Below are positions 428 through 55,404 of a stretch of 64,000 nucleotides of DNA, one piece after another. The DNA comes from Spraguea lophii. Its lineage: Eukaryota > Microsporidia > Spragueidae. Position 1 is the stretch's first letter, and each line of letters begins with the position of its first letter. The position numbers and the translations under genes were made by a program. The notes below the pieces were generated by a model. The model had not been told where the DNA came from, ran no database searches, and saw only the letters and a list, made by a program, of their open reading frames with translations. The stretch is taken from positions 1 to 64,000 of the forward strand of contig LDOQ01000225.1 in assembly GCA_001887945.1 (NCBI GenBank), read 5' to 3'.

Positions 428-3100
428 TTAAAAATCACCTTGTTCAATTCGATCGTTATTGATTACTTTGTTGTTTTCTTCTTTATAAAGATAACCCATT
501 GATTTTAAAAGTTTATGAGCACCTTCATCGTTTATTTGAAAATAATCTTTATCATCAATGTATTCAAATACATTACTTATTTTAAACTTTTCTCCAAATT
601 TAATATTTAAATATTCTCTTAATTGATTGTATAAGGCTAAACTAGATTTTCTATCTTTTAAATATTTGTTGATTTCATCTTTTATTGATTGAAAAGTAAA
701 TTTACTAAAAAATTGTTCAACTATATATTTTTTATCGTGAAGTTCTGGTATCATAGACATATTACCATATAAGTTTGTCACTTTCTCAAATCCAAGTTCT
801 TCTGATAATATATTTCTCCAGTTTAAAAACACCTCGATTTCTTCCTTTTCGTTTTTTCCTGTAGTGATATCTTTAAGGATTTCAAATTTAAGATTCGCAA
901 GCATTTCAATTATCTTTTGTTCGGCAGAATTACAATCATTTCCTTGTTTCAGAAATGCATACGCCGCTATGAATGCTTCTTCTTGGCCATCTAAACAAGA
1001 AACATTATCTGTAGTCGTGTTATAGTTGAAATTTAATTGATCTAAAAGTCGAACAAATACCTCTTCTACGTTTCCTTGTTTTTCTGGAATCATTTCAGTC
1101 ATTGCTATAACAATAAATTCGAAATGATCGATAATTGAATTCCTTTTTTGATAATCAATAGACGAACCTTGAATTAATTCTGGTTTATCTTCATAATAAT
1201 AATATGTTTCTATTCTTCTCATTAAAAAAACTAATTTTTTTTCTCGTTTATATGTTATATAATTAAAAATATTTTGTAACATTTTTTCTATTTCTTTTCT
1301 TGTTTTTGTATGTTTTTGTGGTTTATCCGTTTTACATAATTTTATTTTTTTTAAATTTAATCTTTCATCAATAGGAATATCAAGCTCTTCATAAAATTTT
1401 TTAACATCTAGATCCAAGTTAATATTTTCTGGAATTCGAAATGTTCTTGTCCTATTATATCTGATATTTCTTAAAATATCCTGATTTACTCGTTCAATAG
1501 AGATTAATTCTGAATTCTGTGAATCCTCATCTATCTCTAAGCGCAAAGGATTCATACATAAATCAATTTGTAAAGTTCTGTTTCTCATATTATTAATATT
1601 CGAAGGAAGTAATTCTACACGATTAGAGAATAAATCCAATTTTTTAAGCGTGGTTATGTCGAATATATTTCCGTCGATATTTGTTATTCGGTTGAAAGAT
1701 AAGTTTAGACGTTTTAATGAAACCATACCTATAAAAACATTTTCTAATGTACTTATTTGATTAAACTCTGCTTTAAAAGTCTCTAAATTAATGAGTTTTG
1801 AAATACCACAGGATATACTTGTTAAGAAACAATTAGATAGATCTAAATATTTGATTTTAGAATTGATGGGTACATGCGCAAATATATCTATTTCATTGTC
1901 AATTTGTTCTTCACATTCTACAATTAATTCATTTAAACAATTAAACCAAAAAATATTTGATAATACATTTATGTCTTTAAGAGTTAAAGTAAGACTTATT
2001 AAATTATCACCTTCACAAATATATCTCTCAATTTCTGTAAAAACATTACCCGTAAATATACATTCTTTAAATCTTTTTACCGATTTTAAAATATTTCCAT
2101 CAAATTTTGATATATTATTATTAGATAAATTAAGTGTTCCCAAACTTCGTAACGCATTATCAGATATCGACAATTCGTTTATTCGGTTATATCCAAGATA
2201 TAACCCTAACAAATTATCAAACATATCGTTCGTAATAATTACTTTCTTAATATAATTGAAAGAAATATCTAATATCTTTAAATTAGAAAAAAAATATAAC
2301 TCATGAGGAACTTCTTCGAATAAATTATTGGAAATATATAGTTGTTCTAAATTTATAAAATTACTGAAAATTCTGGGGAACGTACTCAAATCATTACCGC
2401 TAATATTTAAGGATTCGTAAGACGCAAAATCTGTATAATTATTACTCTCATTTTCTGTTGAAATTTCATTATCTGAATAAACGGAATAGAAAATAAAATC
2501 ATTGTTTTTAAACAATAAGTAATTGAGTGATAAATTTAATTCTTTCAAATTTTTTAATTTAAATAAATTTGGACTGATGCTTATCAAATCAGAGCAATAC
2601 CCAATACCTAATGTCTCAAGATTGTTCATTTTAATTATATCAGAAGGTATTGTATCAAATTCATTGAGGTTTAAATTAAGAACTCTCAATTTTGGTAATG
2701 AAAATAGAACACGAGGAAATTCTTTAAATTCATTATCACTTAAATATAATTCTTCTAACTTTTCAAAATTTTCAAATTCATTCGGTAATTTAAACAATTT
2801 TAATCTAATAAGTGTTAAACGTTTAATATCACTGATTTCACAAAATATTGCAGGGAATATATTATTACTTGTTCCGGAGTCATGATTATGTAATTTTATA
2901 ATTTTAATTTCTTTATTATTGTCATATTCTTTATTTATTACAAAAGAACATAAAAAATCTGGATTGTTTATAATTTCAGTATATAAGCCAACTTCATGTG
3001 GTTTGGGTATTAACTCCTTAATACGATCGTAATCACTATGTGTTATTTTATATCTATTACAGTTTATCAATATCGGCAGAAATACTAATAAAAAATTCAT
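428..3100 (-). CDS. Secreted leucine-rich-repeat protein
   Basis: 890-residue protein of unknown exact role. Residues 1-14 form a signal peptide (MNFLLVFLPILINC), so it is expected to be secreted or surface-exposed. From about residue 90 to 550 there are repeated LRR units of the type LxxLxLxxNxL (for example LEELYLSDNEF, LRVLNLNLNEF, LKRLNLSFNRI). The last 340 residues have no LRRs and form a separate, mostly helical, charged domain that I do not recognise. The ATG is preceded by AAACCC about 10 bases upstream, the microsporidian start signal. Secreted LRR families are known to be expanded in some microsporidia and are candidate host-interaction proteins; that role here is inference. Confidence 0.85.
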   Translation of the reverse strand: MNFLLVFLPILINCNRYKITHSDYDRIKELIPKPHEVGLYTEIINNPDFLCSFVINKEYDNNKEIKIIKLHNHDSGTSNNIFPAIFCEISDIKRLTLIRLKLFKLPNEFENFEKLEELYLSDNEFKEFPRVLFSLPKLRVLNLNLNEFDTIPSDIIKMNNLETLGIGYCSDLISISPNLFKLKNLKELNLSLNYLLFKNNDFIFYSVYSDNEISTENESNNYTDFASYESLNISGNDLSTFPRIFSNFINLEQLYISNNLFEEVPHELYFFSNLKILDISFNYIKKVIITNDMFDNLLGLYLGYNRINELSISDNALRSLGTLNLSNNNISKFDGNILKSVKRFKECIFTGNVFTEIERYICEGDNLISLTLTLKDINVLSNIFWFNCLNELIVECEEQIDNEIDIFAHVPINSKIKYLDLSNCFLTSISCGISKLINLETFKAEFNQISTLENVFIGMVSLKRLNLSFNRITNIDGNIFDITTLKKLDLFSNRVELLPSNINNMRNRTLQIDLCMNPLRLEIDEDSQNSELISIERVNQDILRNIRYNRTRTFRIPENINLDLDVKKFYEELDIPIDERLNLKKIKLCKTDKPQKHTKTRKEIEKMLQNIFNYITYKREKKLVFLMRRIETYYYYEDKPELIQGSSIDYQKRNSIIDHFEFIVIAMTEMIPEKQGNVEEVFVRLLDQLNFNYNTTTDNVSCLDGQEEAFIAAYAFLKQGNDCNSAEQKIIEMLANLKFEILKDITTGKNEKEEIEVFLNWRNILSEELGFEKVTNLYGNMSMIPELHDKKYIVEQFFSKFTFQSIKDEINKYLKDRKSSLALYNQLREYLNIKFGEKFKISNVFEYIDDKDYFQINDEGAHKLLKSMGYLYKEENNKVINNDRIEQGDF

Positions 3101-4860: not shown

Positions 4861-4944
4861 ATATATCCTTATAAATTTAAATATACTTCAATGTATCAAA
4901 ACCTTTTTTTCTATTTTTCTTATATTTAAATCTTTTCTTTCTAT

Positions 4945-5440
4945 TTTTTTTTTTTTACGAATGAAACTTTTATTTATCAAAGCTTCCTGGCCGGTTGCGG
5001 CCTACCATGGTCTGAGACCTTCGGTTCCTCGAGCGAAATTAAACTTGTACTAACTGGTTTCGCTACAGATATGCATTAATCTCATCTTACCTTATGCTCC
5101 AGAGTGTTAGGATTTTGCGTCTGGTGCGCGTCGCCGCCACCACTTCCAGCTCTTAAGGAATTCCCAGCCTCTTTCGTTGCATAGTATTGGCCGAGTCACT
5201 AATCAATACAGGGATTGCAACTACATCAGCTAAACACTACTTTAATCTAGTAGCGGGGCCGTCATACAAGGCACAGCTATGCTGCGCTATCGAAACCTCA
5301 CCCACTCAACAACCTTTTTCTTCTCTTCTCCGTTTATTATTATTCTTTTTTTGTTTTGAAAATTTTTCTGGATGAGGGATTCGAACCCGCCAGGCTTGGG
5401 GTTTGGTTACCACCCCACGACCACTGGGCCAGGCGGGACT
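4945..5440 (-). mobile_element. SINE-like element, copy 1, full length
   Basis: In element orientation it starts AGTCCCGCC, has Pol III box A (TGGCCCAGTGG) and box B (GGTTCGAATCC), a roughly 380-bp body, then ATAAATAAAAGTTTCATTCG and a run of A. It is flanked by an exact 14-bp direct repeat TCTTTTCTTTCTAT at 4931-4944 and 5441-5454, the target-site duplication. Short open frames inside it are not genes. Body sequence groups with copy 2 (TCGGTTCCTCGAGCGAAATT). Confidence 0.9.
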
Positions 5441-5454
5441 TCTTTTCTTTCTAT

Positions 5455-6050
5455 ACATATATTATTCATTGATAGTCTATCAATAATTTTTTATTTTTTA
5501 ATCCAACCATTTCTTCCATGCGGTACAAATGCCAATATTGGCCTACATCTTTTATATCTAAGAATTTAAATTTTTTTATGATTTTTCTCGCTTGTTATCA
5601 TAATATCAAAATAATATTTTTTTGTTCTCAATATACTTTTTTAATATATTATAAAATAACGTGTGTTATTTTTGGGGGATAATACAATAACATTCTTTGT
5701 TTTGTATAAATCAAATATATTTATAAATTCCTTTATTCCGGAAATAAATAGTATAAAAAACATTATTCTATCTTTTTTATCTCTTTTTAAAATTTATATA
5801 TATTATCTCCTTTAAAAAAAATTTAATATGAAATGTATAATTCTTTTTATTTTTTTAATTTTTAAATAATTTATTCTTTTCAATTTTTTTTGATAAAGAA
5901 AAATATAAATGTCAACCAAATTTTATAATAAAATAAAAACAAATATAAATATTATAGAACATCATAACCAAATTTTATTGTTATCATAATATATATAAAT
6001 AAGTTGATTATCTTTGTAGTTCATATATATTATAATAAAAAAATACCCCA
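5455..6050. other. Intergenic with possible coding remnant
   Basis: On the minus strand a short stretch around 5460-5560 reads KFLDIKDVGQYWHLYRMEEM and on to a stop, which looks like former coding sequence but has no intact upstream frame. A TTGTATTATCCCCCAAA string near 5678-5694 (minus) resembles the start region of the YPI1 gene at 45.75 kb without its ATG. Otherwise AT-rich spacer. Confidence 0.35.
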
Positions 6051-8901: not shown

Positions 8902-9840
8902 TTAACTACTGGGCAACTTATCGATGATGGTCTTTGGAAATATATCGGGGGGTATTACATTATATCTTTCGTTCAGCAGGTCTTTGTACGTATTTTTTAT
9001 TGTTACTTCAGAAACATTAGTAACAAATGGAACATCCTTTTGTACACCCTTATTTTCGGGCATTAAATTTATAACAAGATATATTATAGCTGCTGCTACA
9101 GAATCAGGACTTTTTCCTGCCATACATCCATTTTCTTGTACTTTTTTTGCAATGGTAGATGCTAGCTTCTGAGCTTTTATTCCCATGGTCAAATCAGAAC
9201 AAAACCTTTCCACAATATCTTCAGTGGAAATCTGTGATATTTTATCTATGTGTGGAAACATTATTTTATAGCTTCTTCCTATTTCTCTTTTGGAAACAGA
9301 AGTTAAAACACTAATTTCTTTAAATGTACGAGGATGACCTTGTTGTCTACAAGCAATATAAATACAAGCAGCAACCACACCTTCAGTATTTTTTCCTCTA
9401 AGAATTTTTTTAGTCTCAACAGTTTTAAAAATAACTTTTGCTTTATCCATGATTGTTCTGGAAATATTACTACGTTCACAAAATGCTGTAATCAAATTAA
9501 ATCCATTTATTAATGCACGTTCTGGTCCACGCATGGAACTCCTCATTTGCGTTCTTGCTAATTTATGAGAAGCCGTACCAGGGGCTGGTCCGATTACTGT
9601 ATCCAACTGTTCCATATCCAACAAAGGATTACTCGGACCTCCTACACGCGATGGATCATCAGTATTAGAATCACCAAAAGATCTCCACTCTGATCTATCA
9701 TCGATAAGTCTTTCGCCCACAACACAGCCACAATTACCACAAACATTGTATCCATTTTTAAAATCTTCGATTATATTTGTTTTTTCACCACAATCCCCGC
9801 ATACAGGAACATATGGTCTTATTTTCAATTTGTATACCAT
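8902..9840 (-). CDS. SUA7: Transcription initiation factor TFIIB
   Basis: 312 residues, the normal TFIIB length. N-terminal zinc ribbon with C14-x2-C17 and C34-x2-C37 (VCGDCG, VCGNCG), followed by the B-reader/linker block DDRSEWRSFGDSNTDDPSRV, then two cyclin-like repeats (for example GVVAACIYIACRQQGHPRTFKEI and the second repeat VAAAIIYLVINLMPE). It bridges TBP and RNA polymerase II at promoters. The ATG follows TATACACCC, the same string found before two other genes in this window. Confidence 0.97.
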   Translation of the reverse strand: MVYKLKIRPYVPVCGDCGEKTNIIEDFKNGYNVCGNCGCVVGERLIDDRSEWRSFGDSNTDDPSRVGGPSNPLLDMEQLDTVIGPAPGTASHKLARTQMRSSMRGPERALINGFNLITAFCERSNISRTIMDKAKVIFKTVETKKILRGKNTEGVVAACIYIACRQQGHPRTFKEISVLTSVSKREIGRSYKIMFPHIDKISQISTEDIVERFCSDLTMGIKAQKLASTIAKKVQENGCMAGKSPDSVAAAIIYLVINLMPENKGVQKDVPFVTNVSEVTIKNTYKDLLNERYNVIPPDIFPKTIIDKLPSS

Positions 9841-21263: not shown

Positions 21264-21702
21264 GATATTGCTTGGTCCAGTGGTAGTAGGATGATAACCA
21301 AATCTTAAGTCTAACGGGTTTGAATCCTTTATTTGGGAGAATTTTCAAAAAAAAGAATAAATGATAGTTATGAAAGGTTAAATGGGTGAAGGTTCGATAA
21401 CGTAATATTGGTTATGGCTTATATAACAGCTCATCGCTAAATTAAAGTAATATTTAACTGGCGTAATTGCAATTCCTGTATTGGTTTATTAATCTATATT
21501 ATTATATTAAGAATCTCATTAAAAACGGTCGAATAATTATTATATCATACATAAAATTTCAACACTCTAGAACATAATATAAGATTAATGTATATCTGTA
21601 ATGAAACCAGTTAATACAAGTTTAAACATGTTTTCGAACTCAAAGGTCACATACCACAACTAATTAGAAAACTTCTATAAATAAAAGTTTCATTTAAAAA
21701 AA
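21264..21702 (+). mobile_element. SINE-like element, copy 6, diverged
   Basis: Box A is TTGGTCCAGTGG, box B is GGTTTGAATCC. Body landmarks ATTAATCTATATTATT and TATATCTGTAATGAAACCAG remain, and the 3' end is CTATAAATAAAAGTTTCATT plus A-run. Old copy; no clear target duplication. Confidence 0.78.
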
Positions 21703-24994: not shown

Positions 24995-25249
24995 AATAAT
25001 TTAAATGGTAAAGTTAAATTTAAAGATAATCAAAACAATTATGATTCATATTCAAGCAATAGAATAGAATAATTTAAAGGATAAAGATAATGATTGTAAC
25101 AATATAGAATATATTTATTGTAATGGATATTTGTAAAATATATCATTGTTAAACATGGATTAATATTTAATTAATAATTATATATATTTATAAATAACCC
25201 ATAAATTTTATATAAGAAATTAAGTGAAATGATGACGTATAACATATAC

Positions 25250-25411
25250 AGAATCCTAATGTTCTAAAATATAAGGTAAGATGAGATTAATGCATATCTG
25301 TAATAAAACCAGTTAATACAAATTTAAATATTCTTTAAATCCCAAAGATCATAAACCATAATAGACTACAACTATTTAGAAACTTTCTATAAATAAAAGT
25401 TTCATTAAAAA
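25250..25411 (+). mobile_element. SINE-like element, copy 7, 5'-truncated
   Basis: Only the 3' third remains: TAAGGTAAGATGAGATTAAT, GCATATCTGTAATAAAACCAG, then CTATAAATAAAAGTTTCATT and A-run. 5' truncation fits retroposition by target-primed reverse transcription. Confidence 0.8.
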
Positions 25412-32415: not shown

Positions 32416-33760
32416 AGTAATATCATAATAAGATAAGATATTAGAGGAGAAATATCATATATAACATTAAGCATGAAAAATATCATATATGTATATTTCT
32501 ATTATAAATATAAATTTTAATAATTAAATCTCTTTTTCTATAAGAAAATAATTAAAAAAGGAGATATTACTTAATGACATTTACATATTCGTATTAATAT
32601 TATATATAATCAATTAAAACCATATTTGATTAAGTGATAATCATATTATATATAATATTAATACGATTTACATTCTCTTATAAATATAATATCTATTTTA
32701 AAATTAAAAAAATTATATATTTAAAACTTTTTAAAAAATATTAAAATATTTGAAAACCCCATATATTATATTATAATAGAATATCTATACAATATATCTT
32801 AGAATAAAGATTTAATAACAAGTGAATGAAATATTCTCATCTTCAGATAAAAAACAAAAAAAAATATACACCCAAGATATTAGACCACGATAGGCCCGAA
32901 GAAAGTTTAATTTATAGATATTCTCTAAAAAACTGATTTATCAGACTGTGAATTAAGTTGAAGGATAAAAAAGTATAAAATAATTCTGTTGCAATAACAA
33001 AAATGTATCTTAAATAAATTTTCTTATATTAAAAAAAACAAAAATAAATCTTTTAGATAACGCGATAAACCATTATCCTAATGGTATTAAAAATCCATTA
33101 TTCTAATAGTGTTAAAGAATATATTGAAATATAAAAGTGATTAAAAACTATTATATTTAAGAAACACTTATTAATTATTTATCTTATTAGTAAGAATATA
33201 TTTTTATAACTTTTATACAATATTATAACGAATAATCTTATATTCATAACAAATTAATAATATAATAGTTATAACAAACTAATGTATTATAACAATAATA
33301 TAATAATTATAAAATAAAATATAACGTCATAACAAATACAATAAATTAAAATGATAAACTACCAACAAATATATTATATTTTTATAATTTACCTTATGAT
33401 ATCAATATATGATAAAATAGAAATTGTAAGTGGTAATGTAAAATGATAATAAAATATATAATAATAGAGTGATATATAGTGATATAGTGATAATGATAGA
33501 ATAATACAGTATGATAATACCATATACTTACTATAACATACTTCATATTATAACTATAACAATATTTTACTATAACAATCATATATATTATATATTTTAT
33601 TATCAAATATAATTTATAGTTCTTAGTATTATCATCAAATACAATATCTGCTATTCTATCTTTTTTTATTATAAATCAAATAATATTATTTATAATAAAT
33701 ATAATTGTTATAATTATTATTATATTGAAATATTGTAATATAATAATAAAAGATAGAATA
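32416..33760. other. Gene-poor stretch with hairpin
   Basis: About 1.3 kb of AT-rich DNA. It holds the perfect inverted repeat described separately (32590-32665) and a minus-strand low-complexity Tyr/Ile frame (33394-33606) that I do not accept as a gene. Confidence 0.45.
32590..32665. repeat. Perfect 21-bp inverted repeat
   Basis: Arms 32590-32610 and 32645-32665 are exact reverse complements (core GTATTAATATTATATATAAT), 34-base loop. Not close to a gene end: 175 bp before the HSP20-like start. Confidence 0.7.
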
Positions 33761-37150: not shown

Positions 37151-37584
37151 TCTCAATAATTCTTTATGTATATTACTTTATTTTTCTTTAACAAAAGTTT
37201 GATATGGATAAAACATAATATACCTATATTACAAATTTATTACATGTATGCACTAATCTCAGCTTATGTTTTAGAATATTATAACTTTGTATATGCTATA
37301 ACACTCTATATTATCTTAGCAAAGTTTTATTATTTTTCTAAGTATAATATTACATAGGTCATAAATGAATATAAGGATTGCAATTACACCAACTAAACAC
37401 TACTTTAATCTAACAGTAAGACCGTTATGGAAAATGTAACCAATATTACACTAACGAACTCTCACCCGTTTAATGATATTTAAACTATTCTTTTCTACTT
37501 TTTAAAAATTTTTCTAGAGAAAGGCTCGAACTTGTTAAGCTTAGATTTGATTATCACTCCGTGACCGTTCAGCTAAACGTATTT
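37151..37584 (-). mobile_element. SINE-like element, copy 11, old
   Basis: Minus-strand copy, heavily decayed. Landmarks: TATGCACTAATCTCAGCTTA (body), AAGGATTGCAATTACACC and AACTAAACACTACTTTAATC (well preserved), box B degenerate (GGCTCGAACTTG in plus reading), A-rich spacer. The short plus-strand frame 37166-37357 lies inside it and is not a gene. Confidence 0.65.
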
Positions 37585-40097: not shown

Positions 40098-40487
40098 ATC
40101 ATTTTGGTATAATGGCCATGAAATAATAACAAAATCTTAAGACTCATGAATTTGAATATCTTATCTGAAAATCTTTCAAAACAAAAAAGATAGAAAAATA
40201 AGAAAAGAATGTATTTGAAATAATGTTTAATTGGTGTAATTACAATCTCGGTATTGATTAATAGAATATTATGTCAAAAAGGAAATTAAAATTGCTTTTA
40301 TCCGATAAAATAATGAATACATCAAATGTAAAACTCTAACACTCTAAATCATAATATAATATGTGAATAATGTATATATATAACAAAATTAATTAGTACA
40401 AATTACTCGTGCTCTACAGAATCAACGGTTTCAAACCATAGTAGACTATAATAATATACAGAAATGTTTTGATTATAATTAAAAAAT
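40098..40487 (+). mobile_element. SINE-like element, copy 8, old
   Basis: Remnant with TTTGGTATAATGGCCATG at the 5' end, GTTTAATTGGTGTAATTACAATC in the body, AACTCTAACACTCTAAATCA, and AATCAACGGTTTCAAACCAT near the 3' end. A-rich spacer after the tRNA-like head is kept. Confidence 0.6.
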
Positions 40488-41723: not shown

Positions 41724-42159
41724 AGTTTGTTCGGAACTGTGGTCGTGAGGATGATAAATCTCAAGTTTAATGGATCCAAATTTCTCACCCAGAAGAAATT
41801 TCGAAAAGAATAGAATATAGAAGACAACAATAAAAAGGTTGTTGGTAAAGAAGGTTTGATGATCGGGATTTGAATATGACTTATATAATGCCGTTACTAG
41901 ATTAAAATAATATTTAGTTGGTGTAGTTACAATCCTTGTATAGATTTGTGATTTAACTAGCACTATGTCAAGAAGAAAGTTGGAGTCGGTGAGATATGCA
42001 TTATACGAAAAATCCAATTATTTATAACGCAATGTAATGTAAGATTAACTCATATCTGTAACAAGTCAATTTATATAAGTTTAAATACGTTTTAGGAACC
42101 AAGGGTCGTAAATTATAATCGGCACAAGATTTTTATAAATAAAAGCTCCATTAAAAAAT
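41724..42159 (+). mobile_element. SINE-like element, copy 9, old
   Basis: CTGTGGTCGTGAGGATGATAA marks the tRNA-like head; body landmarks TTACTAGATTAAAATAATAT and TTGGTGTAGTTACAATCCTT; end TTTATAAATAAAAGCTCCATT plus A-run. The minus-strand frame 41679-42017 is inside it and rejected. Confidence 0.72.
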
Positions 42160-43375: not shown

Positions 43376-43862
43376 TTTTTTTAACTAATGAAACTTTTAT
43401 TTATCAAAGTTCCCTGGCCAGTTGCAGCCTACCATGGTCTGTGACCTTCGGTTCCTCGAGCGAAATTAAACTTGTACTAACTGGTTTCGCTACAGATACG
43501 CATTAATCTCATCTTACCTTATACTCCAGAGTGTTAGGATTTTGCGTCTGGTGCGCGTCGCCTCCCCCACTTCCAGCTCTTAAGGAATTCTCAGCCTCTT
43601 TCGTTGCATAGTATTGACCGAGTCACAAATCAATACAGGGATTGCAACTACATCAGTTAAACACTACTTTAATCTAGTACCGGGGCCGTCATACAAGACA
43701 CAGATATGCTGCGCTATCGAAACCTCACCCACTCAACGACCTTTTTCTTCTCTTCTGCATTTATTATTATTTTTTTGTTTTGAAAATTTTTCTGGATGAA
43801 GGATTCGATCCCGCCAGGCTTGGGGGTGGTTACCACCCCACGACCACTGGGCCAAGCGGGAC
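43376..43862 (-). mobile_element. SINE-like element, copy 2, near full length
   Basis: Complete from the tRNA-like head to the tail TTTCATTAGTTAAAAAAA. Box A reads TTGGCCCAGTGG; box B is GGGATCGAATCC. Body groups with copy 1, tail groups with copy 4. No target duplication is found: its left flank belongs to the A locus and its right flank (from 43868, ATAATGTATAATAAC) is homologous to the upstream region of B'. This is one of two proposed inversion breakpoints. Confidence 0.88.
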
Positions 43863-44790: not shown

Positions 44791-45253
44791 TAGCCCATTT
44801 AACTGAATGGTCATGGAGCGGTAACCAAATTCCAAGTCTAGAATGTTCGAATCCCTCAATCATAAGAACATTTAGATAAAAAAAAATAAAAGGATAGAAA
44901 AGAAAGATTATTAAATGAATGATTGTTCGCTAGCGTAACATTAGTTAGATCTTGTATCACGGTCTCACTACTAGATTAAAGTGGTATTTAACCGGTATAA
45001 TAACAATCCCTGTATTGATTTGTGATTCGATTAATACTATGTCAAGAAAGAGATTACGAATCTCTAAGAAACTGGGAGGGAGAAATACATTATATACAAG
45101 TTTCTAACGCTCTAAAATATAAGGTAAGATGAGATTAATGCATATCTGTAATGAAAAAATAAATAAAAATATGCTTTAAAAACCAAATGACATAGAACAT
45201 AATATCCCGTATCCAACCAGAAAACTTCTATAAATAAAAGTTTCATTAAAAGA
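44791..45253 (+). mobile_element. SINE-like element, copy 5, diverged
   Basis: Head TAGCCCATTTAACTGAATGG, box B TGTTCGAATCCC, body TACTAGATTAAAGTGGTATT and TGTATTGATTTGTGATTCG, 3' end CTATAAATAAAAGTTTCATT plus A-run. It is orthologous to copy 12 downstream of B': both share GAATGTTCGAATCCCTCAAT, so the insertion predates the B duplication. Confidence 0.82.
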
Positions 45254-45799: not shown

Positions 45800-46250
45800 T
45801 TTTTTTTTACGAATGAAACTTTTATTTATCAAAGCTTCCTGGCCGGTTGCGGCCTACCATGGTCTGTGACCTTCAGTTCCTCGAGCGAATCTAAGCTTGT
45901 ACTAACGGGTTTCGCTACAGATATGCATTAATCTCATCTTACCCTATGCTCCAGAGTGTTAGGATTTTGCGTCTGGTGCGCGTCGCCACCCCCACTTCCA
46001 GCTCTAAGGAATTCCAAGCCTCTTTCGTTGCATAGTATTGGCCGAGTCACAAATCAATACAGGGATTGCAACTACATCAGCTAAACACTACTTTAATCTA
46101 GTAGCGGGGCCGTCGTACAAGGCACAGCTATGCTGCGCTATCGAAACCTCACTCACTCAACAACCTTTTTTTTCTCTTCTGCATTTATTATTATTATTTT
46201 TTTTGTTTTGAAAACTTTTTCTGGATGAGGGATTCGAACCCGCCAGGCTT
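45800..46250 (-). mobile_element. SINE-like element, copy 3, 5'-truncated with TSD
   Basis: Nearly identical in body to copy 4 (TTCAGTTCCTCGAGCGAATC and TAAGCTTGTACTAACGGGTT are shared), tail ATTCGT plus A-run. The 5' end is cut in the tRNA-like head just after GGCTT, losing box A and keeping box B. Exact 14-bp flanking repeat AGGAGCAGGATATA at 45786-45799 and 46251-46264. This is diagnostic of a truncated retroposition event. Confidence 0.93.
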
Positions 46251-46264
46251 AGGAGCAGGATATA

Positions 46265-48650: not shown

Positions 48651-49145
48651 AGTCCCGCTTGGCCCAGTGGTCGTGGGGTGGTAACCAAACCCCAAGCCTG
48701 GCGGGTTCGAATCCCTCATCCAGAAAAAGTTTTCAAAACAAAAAAAAAAAATAATAATAAATGCAGAAGAGAAGAAAAAGGTTGTTGAGTGAGTGAGGTT
48801 TCGATAGCGCAGCATAGCTGTGCCTTGTACGACGGCCCCGCTACTAGATTAAAGTAGTGTTTAGCTGATGTAGTTGCAATCCCTGTATTGATTTGTGACT
48901 CGGCCAATACTATGCAACGAAAGAGGCTTGGAATTCCTTAGAGCTGGAAGTGGGGGTGGCGACGCGCACCAGACGCAAAATCCTAACACTCTGGAGCATA
49001 GGGTAAGATGAGATTAATGCATATCTGTAGCGAAACCCGTTAGTACAAGCTTAGATTCGCTCGAGGAACTGAAGGTCACAGACCATGGTAGGCCGCAACC
49101 GGCCAGGAAGCTTTGATAAATAAAAGTTTCATTAGTTAAAAAAAA
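48651..49145 (+). mobile_element. SINE-like element, copy 4, full length
   Basis: The cleanest copy: AGTCCCGC head, TGGCCCAGTGG, GGTTCGAATCC, A-rich spacer, body, TTTGATAAATAAAAGTTTCA, then TTAGTT plus A-run. No target duplication is visible; its left flank belongs to A' and its right flank to the B' 3' region, the mirror image of copy 2. Body is closest to copy 3, tail closest to copy 2, so it is mosaic. Confidence 0.92.
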
Positions 49146-49149
49146 GTCA

Positions 49150-49360
49150 TTATACCGGCTAAGTACTACTTTAATCTAATGGTGGGACCATCATACAAGG
49201 TCGAACTGATGTAACGCTATCAAACCCTCATTCATTTAACAATCTTTCTCTTCCATATCTTTTATTTTTTTATTTAAATTTTCTTATGATTGAGGGATTC
49301 GAACATTCTAGATTTATGATTTGAACACCGCCCCCACGACCATTTAGTTAAATGGACTAG
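49150..49360 (-). mobile_element. SINE-like element, copy 12, 3'-truncated relic
   Basis: Only the tRNA-like head and first part of the body remain (in plus reading AAGTACTACTTTAATCTAAT ... GATTGAGGGATTCGAACATTC). Orthologous to copy 5; it has lost its 3' half where copy 4 now begins. Confidence 0.8.
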
Positions 49361-54955: not shown

Positions 54956-55404
54956 TAATTTTTTTAATGAAACTTTTATTTATAGAGGGTTTTTACTGAC
55001 TGTGATCTATGTGCTTTAGTTCTTAAGATACATTTAAACTTGTATCAATTGGTTTGTTATAGATATATATTAACATCATTTTACATTATGCTCTAAAAGG
55101 CGTGTTTTTACATATGGTGCATATCGCTCCTTTCCTCGTGTATTAATAAAATTTTAATCTCCATTTTGGTATAGTATTGGCCAAATCACAAATCAGTACA
55201 ACGGGTATAAATATACCAGTTAAACACTGCTGTGATTTAATAATGTGGTCTTTATATATGGCATAATTAAACAAACCATTGAACCCGCCTACTCAATATA
55301 TCTTTTTCATTTCTACATTTTTTTGTGAAAACTTTTTTGGGCGAGGGATTCGAACCTACCGGACTTGGGATCACACCATGAACACGATATCTTTTAACAA
55401 TCGA
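54956..55404 (-). mobile_element. SINE-like element, copy 10, diverged
   Basis: Minus-strand copy: 3' end TTAATGAAACTTTTATTTAT, body GATATATATTAACATCATTT and AGTATTGGCCAAATCACAAA, box B region GAGGGATTCGAACCTACC, box A degenerate. Moderately old. Confidence 0.8.

Follow-up and report, generated by a model that had tools for sequence, protein, structure and literature searches.

The microsporidian fish parasite Spraguea lophii carries well over a hundred copies of a SINE in its small genome, and the most likely arrangement is a SINE-LINE pair, in which a tRNA-type SINE would be copied, now or until recently, by a resident LINE that we call LINE A. One full-length copy lies at 4945..5440 of the window, the whole stretch of 64,000 nt that was analysed. 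The Pol III boxes, the body, the fixed 3′ end, the A-run and the exact 14-bp duplication that the preliminary description had claimed for this copy are all present:

4945..5440, minus strand (the RNA sense): full-length SINE copy, 496 nt
5441..5454, minus strand: target-site duplication on the 5′ side of the SINE, exact 14-nt match, TCTTTTCTTTCTAT
4931..4944, minus strand: target-site duplication on the 3′ side of the SINE, exact 14-nt match, TCTTTTCTTTCTAT
5421..5431, minus strand: Pol III box A, TGGCCCAGTGG, element positions 10-20
5377..5387, minus strand: Pol III box B, GGTTCGAATCC, element positions 54-64
4985..5033, minus strand: 3′ segment in common with the LINE A 3′ UTR, from alignment to LINE copies
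4960..4977, minus strand: fixed 3′ terminal motif ATAAATAAAAGTTTCATT, read from the sequence
4945..4956, minus strand: A-run (3′ tail), read from the sequence, with the tails of 92 copies compared

That this repeat is a SINE is close to certain, and a SINE reading with LINE-type copying is very probable. The family consensus, built from 73 full-length copies, is 495 nt long with a GC content of 45.5%, against about 23% for the window, and neither of its strands holds an ATG frame that reaches 28 codons, counting the stop. On this consensus the element is short, non-coding and non-autonomous.

The head of the element points to Pol III. Boxes A and B both match their full consensus and lie 44 nt apart from start to start, and when the first 120 nt were shuffled 20,000 times, the two boxes never occurred together at a fitting spacing; transcription of the SINE by Pol III would start from these internal boxes. 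When the head was aligned to tRNA genes of the same genome (40 of the 57 found were taken in), the best partner was tRNA-Trp with a score of 55, compared with a mean of 25.5 (sd 4.8, maximum 44, n=200) for shuffled heads. Several tRNAs give similar scores, so that tRNA-Trp is one candidate parent among others. The preliminary description had called the family tRNA-derived, and the evidence on this label is divided: the two boxes, the T-arm and the tRNA-gene alignment speak for it, but the head was not matched by the Rfam tRNA model even at an E-value of 10, so that it is on the first three that the label rests. Downstream of box B, 65 of the 73 full-length copies have a TTTT, at which Pol III could terminate early. 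The two tRNA genes whose flanks were examined have longer runs downstream, T5 and T7; T4 may thus be a weak stop, although a sample of two carries little weight.

Twelve copies of different age had been announced for the window, and a profile search recovers this number, four young-like and eight old. There were 13 matches at E ≤0.01, which make 12 copies because those at 40104-40200 and 40218-40446 belong to a single one, and together they cover 4,698 of the 64,000 bases (7.3%). The profile was built on copies outside the window, its seed profile having included window copies, and neither the reversed window nor any of five Markov windows gave a match. Identity to the reference is 94-100% in four copies and 64-86% over the aligned pieces of the other eight; in the window, old copies thus outnumber young ones by 8 to 4. 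Besides the copy described above, the window contains:

21270..21702, plus strand: old SINE copy, profile E 1.3e-65
25229..25406, plus strand: old SINE fragment, profile E 5.9e-29
37237..37579, minus strand: old SINE copy, profile E 3.5e-38
40104..40446, plus strand: old SINE copy, two profile matches, E 6.7e-5 and 4.7e-20
41736..42154, plus strand: old SINE copy, profile E 1.6e-47
43376..43862, minus strand: SINE copy, 94% identical; an exact duplication was looked for and not found
44794..45248, plus strand: old SINE copy, profile E 2.9e-82
45800..46253, minus strand: SINE copy, 95% identical, 5′-truncated at element position 41, with an 11-nt duplication, TATATCCTGCT
48651..49145, plus strand: SINE copy, 95% identical, adjoining an old copy; an exact duplication was looked for and not found
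49149..49353, minus strand: old SINE fragment, profile E 2.6e-31
54961..55385, minus strand: old SINE copy, profile E 2.5e-56
32930..33038, plus strand: old 5′-truncated LINE A 3′ end with A-tail, 74% identity, E 1.5e-10

The window also encodes, at 428-3100 on the minus strand, an 890-aa protein that looks leucine-rich-repeat-like by eye. An apparent relative, again judged by eye, lies beside a SINE on contig C11 (L042:1841-2200), and an expansion of an LRR family has been reported in S. lophii (PMC3749934). TFIIB, encoded in the window at 8902-9840, agrees at all 312 aa with the protein of S. lophii 42_110.

Genome-wide searches were run on the assembly version of 73 contigs and 5.27 Mb, in which microsporidian SSU rRNA found no match. 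A 22-nt pattern of the 3′ end, with up to two mismatches, occurs at 144 sites (70 + 74) and at none in the control. At least 40 near-full-length copies of 97-100% identity were present among the 45 matches listed; this search scored 40 of 446 candidates, so that its counts are a lower bound. For closer study we assembled a locus set from 80 of the 85 listed exact 3′-end sites and all 40 near-full-length sites, amounting to 88 sequences and 266,071 bases. In it, 92 copies of at least 90% identity extend to element position 485 or further, and 73 of them are full length. These loci were picked around young copies, and the small number of old matches among them is therefore uninformative on the mix of ages. 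Among singleton changes in the 73 copies, GC>AT is about twice as frequent per site as AT>GC (63 versus 35), and such singletons could possibly serve as a neutral gauge of the mutation bias of the genome. The exact 3′ segment was found in none of the viral contigs, and the SINE in none of the phage records.

The family also accounts for breaks in the assembly, six listed contigs (C15, C25, C54, C56, C58 and C60, at about contig position 102-124) beginning about 127 bases inside a SINE. Their common starting point in the element suggested telomere-directed insertion, but we rejected this candidate as the match ends about 127 bases in. Williams et al. 2016 (PMC4948709) made the ‘Celtic Deep’ S. 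lophii assembly with SPAdes, using k values of up to 127. Taken together, this value and the end of the match point to a graph overlap at a collapsed repeat, and the contig starts within the SINE look like k-mer overlap left there by the assembler.

The flanks of the copies bear on the insertion mechanism. An exact duplication of at least 9 nt borders 70 of 87 copies and was not found at the other 17, whereas mismatched flanks lead one to expect 2.7 per set; five of the 92 copies were left out, their flank being cut by a contig end (four) or by the edge of the stretch (one). The duplications range from 9 to 16 bp, with a mode of 13-14 bp and 58 of the 70 at 12-15 nt, lengths that may include A's in common with the tail. 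None of 1,740 mismatched flank pairs reached 14 nt. Moreover, 14 of the 87 copies are 5′-truncated, at differing points, and nine of these bear a duplication of at least 9 nt. Target-primed reverse transcription characteristically leaves such 5′ truncation, together with A-tails and duplications of variable length. Copies elsewhere lacking duplications and A-tails, which would have spoken against a SINE, are not what the genome holds, as both are present in other copies. One young copy (L076) lies in the A-rich linker of an older SINE and is bordered on both sides by the imperfect repeat AACAGACYG; this is a paralogous comparison of filled and empty sites, done by eye. A base bias at the edge of the duplications raised the question of a target preference of the endonuclease, but this was dropped, because choosing the longest match absorbs A's beside the A-tail.

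Two loci bear on rearrangement. In an inverted pair of SINEs on contig C1 (C1:142000-145200; L030:810-1303 and 1894-2275), duplications proper to each copy were not found. Instead, 14 nt match between the 5′ flank of one SINE and the 3′ flank of its partner, and in the reverse pairing TTCATTGATT is in common (by eye). This is the footprint that an inversion of about 590 bp by SINE-SINE recombination would be expected to leave. At C1:213343 (L031:344) and C52:213 (L067:213), two copies have the same 37-nt 5′ flank and different 3′ flanks, which may reflect either recombination between copies or misassembly.

A SINE needs the machinery of another element, and the preliminary description had held that a LINE-type reverse transcriptase must exist elsewhere in the genome. 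Indeed, endonuclease and reverse transcriptase (RT) sequence is there. The RT search of the genome gave nine matches, including gypsy-type LTR elements, TERT and LINE pieces; as a separate observation, an asparagine-rich telomerase reverse transcriptase gene with Telomerase_RBD and RVT_1 lies at C2:65028-68771 (L013, L016). The frame of interest is at C72:3-1439. It encodes 479 aa of endonuclease and RT, the RT being cut by the contig end, with an upstream part of the endonuclease in another frame. Both domains have Pfam matches with scores below the curated cut-offs. Against solved structures the frame gives five matches, four to LINE-1 ORF2 and one to an ‘RNA-directed DNA polymerase’, at E 0.9-2.5e-9. 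Basic frames with a leucine-rich stretch were noticed upstream of it and at L026:2670-3461; lying upstream of the LINE endonuclease-RT, they are perhaps ORF1.

The 3′ end of LINE A comprises a C-terminal C-x2-C-x8-H-x4-C motif, a stop, a 3′ UTR of about 220 nt and an A-tail. Its C-terminus scores 13.6 bits with Pfam zf-RVT, below the cut-off, and finds no match in the protein database at E 0.001. Many 5′-cut copies have this 3′ end in common, and two (C61, C27) stop earlier. A decayed copy on C1 carries a C72-type RT followed by pieces of the LINE A C-terminus and thereby joins the two halves; on the strength of this single link, the C72 frame and the LINE A 3′ end probably belong to the same element. 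When both flanks are present, LINE A copies show exact duplications of at least 10 nt in 4 of 11 cases, the other seven having none of that length found, as opposed to 1 of 110 mismatched pairs. On C48, a LINE seemed to terminate in the SINE tail; this candidate was rejected, because the tail belongs to a distinct full-length SINE that carries a duplication of its own.

Is the pair still active? In the fullest form of our interpretation, a microsporidian SINE-LINE pair is still jumping between and within Spraguea populations; a poly-A, LINE-1-like LINE would pick its RNA by a conserved two-hairpin segment of about 44 nt, and this segment and the tip would be all that the SINE has kept. We put this forward tentatively, as a possibility falling somewhat short of an even chance. 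Were it true, the SINE would be one of the main sources, overlooked until now, of intergenic DNA, of rearrangements and of insertion differences in this ‘streamlined’ genome. The family may instead be extinct, its young look being that of a recent burst with no source copy or LINE working today, an explanation we find rather unlikely. It draws on the LINE itself, as no intact LINE A was seen among the loci read and the C72 frame sits at a contig end with part of its endonuclease in another frame, and on the median divergence of the 73 full-length copies from their consensus, which is 1.25% and not zero (range 0.2-5.9%, gaps and tail excluded). However, two of these copies lie just 0.2% away from it (again without gaps and tail). 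Several LINE A copies stop at contig ends, so the assembly may have collapsed intact ones. S. lophii has, furthermore, been reported to transcribe four non-LTR retrotransposons (PMC3749934).

That LINE A is the partner of the SINE is likely, on sequence comparison, and this rating comes from the shared 3′ segment, the weaker similarity of the tip and the like outcome of the duplication test. The SINE 3′ segment matches the LINE copy in L026 at 85.7% over 49 bases (E 1.25e-9) and other LINE A copies at 83-90% (E 9e-6 to 2e-12). In the closest pair counted, LINE A in L105 and the SINE in L004, 40 of 44 nt are identical (about 90%); the LINE A 3′ UTR of L105 carries GAACCAAAGGTCCCAGACCATGGTGGGCCGCAACCGGCCAGGA, and the SINE carries GAACCGAAGGTCACAGACCATGGTAGGCCGCAACCGGCCAGGA directly before its tip. 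Old SINEs have the segment too, as do LINE A copies with an overall identity of 71-95%, so its presence in both elements does not go back to a recent event. Two LINE A copies have not kept it whole: in L109 part of it is deleted, and in L112 it has decayed.

The expectation that a LINE would end in the SINE 3′ motif holds in part. Among the loci read, no LINE with the exact ATAAATAAAAGTTTCATT turned up, but the stretch of about 44 nt upstream is in common, with weaker similarity at the tip. Compared with LINE A, the SINE tip (TAAATAAA..TTTC) goes beyond shuffles in four of six copies, where 3 to 31 of 2,000 shuffles do as well, and is no better than shuffles in the other two. Folding of the SINE and of three LINE A copies predicts the same pair of hairpins each time; out of 200 shuffles, 13-29 fold as well as the LINE A stretches and 3 as well as the SINE. 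Covariation gave the hairpins no support above shuffles (30 sequences, 91.5% of cells paired).

Another non-LTR element could move the SINE in place of LINE A, for instance LINE B or an unassembled LINE, the LINE A segment then being an old relic or a captured module. LINE B is a second LINE whose 3′ end, with its own A-run, was noticed at C21:956-1155 (L026); further matches share this end point, among them those on C20, C47, C34 and C42 and at C16:82950. The genome thus holds more than one LINE lineage, with further decayed RT pieces besides the LINE B ends, the exact SINE tip was not found on the LINE A copies read, and the reported transcripts belong to four non-LTR elements (PMC3749934). 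On the other hand, a profile search with the segment matched only SINEs and LINE A in the loci examined, and in both elements the segment lies near the 3′ end, where the signal of a partner belongs. Movement by another LINE is accordingly improbable, and we retain LINE A as the likely partner.

The duplications of MITEs and LTR elements are short and of fixed length, and a non-autonomous DNA transposon (MITE) or a short LTR-derived element, the counter-reading named in the preliminary description, was rejected with next to no probability left to it, as variable-length duplications, A-tails and 5′ truncation do not fit and inverted repeats at the element ends were not found in 4900-5500. In its favour count the presence of LTR elements in the genome and the report of Merlin and mariner DNA transposons in S. 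lophii (PMC4202319).

With a SINE paired to LINE A, the cycle would run as follows. Pol III would transcribe the element from its internal boxes A and B, giving an RNA whose 3′ part is the segment with the two predicted hairpins and a short A-tail. The LINE protein would then bind this RNA through the 3′ region in common with the LINE A 3′ UTR, nick AT-rich DNA and reverse transcribe from the tail. The products of such a cycle would be what the flanks display, that is duplications mostly of 12-15 bp and some 5′-truncated copies, both of which are observed.

Microsporidia serve as a standard example of reduced genomes, and a survey of their transposable elements gives only LINE, LTR and DNA elements for the group (PMC4202319). 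The published repeat content of the ‘Celtic Deep’ S. lophii assembly is 3.68% (PMC4948709), whereas the SINE family alone makes up 7.3% of our window, a single window that is possibly richer than average. If this proportion holds genome-wide, the repeat content of Spraguea and the origin of its intergenic DNA have been underestimated. The 70 copies with clean duplications are candidate presence/absence markers for Spraguea populations. Finally, the shared 3′ segment offers a direct test of how a LINE chooses its RNA in a reduced eukaryote.

Among tRNA-derived SINEs there are known ones with an A-tail and a 3′ end in common with a LINE. The Spraguea SINE resembles them in its Pol III boxes, its unique body, its LINE-shared 3′ segment, its variable duplications and its 5′-truncated copies, and differs in its host, a microsporidian. 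SINE and LINE A both end in a poly-A tail, but they differ beyond the shared segment, where about 12 nt and the short terminal motif follow in the SINE and about 130 nt in LINE A. In the L1-SINE pairs of plants and mammals, poly-A LINEs copy SINEs, and some plant L1s share SINE 3′ sequence. For the Spraguea pair a LINE-1 clade is tentative: against solved structures, the C72 frame has LINE-1 ORF2 matches. Recognition of a 3′ stem-loop by a LINE has been studied elsewhere (PMC4176376).

The AfuSINE families of the filamentous fungus Aspergillus fumigatus, which are tRNA-related and have duplications of 4-14 bp (PMC5063351), are alike by description; in comparison, the Spraguea SINE is about 500 nt long, with 45.5% GC in a window of about 23%. 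Within Microsporidia, the preliminary description knew of no described SINE of this kind, and no described SINE was found in the literature searched (main texts), bar one unexplained table line. The word SINE is absent from the main texts, in the portions covered, of the S. lophii genome papers (PMC3749934, PMC4948709) and the microsporidian TE survey (PMC4202319), as well as of the TE-transmission study and the T. hominis, N. ceranae, forty-genomes and MB telomere-to-telomere papers. In the covered main text of the Nosema bombycis paper it occurs once, in the repeat table, as ‘SINE, 28,669 bp, 0.18%’ (PMC3614468). That line puts the SINE label on a microsporidian repeat without sequence, promoter, duplication or partner, whereas the Spraguea family is apparently the first SINE to be characterised in Microsporidia, and comes with a likely LINE partner.
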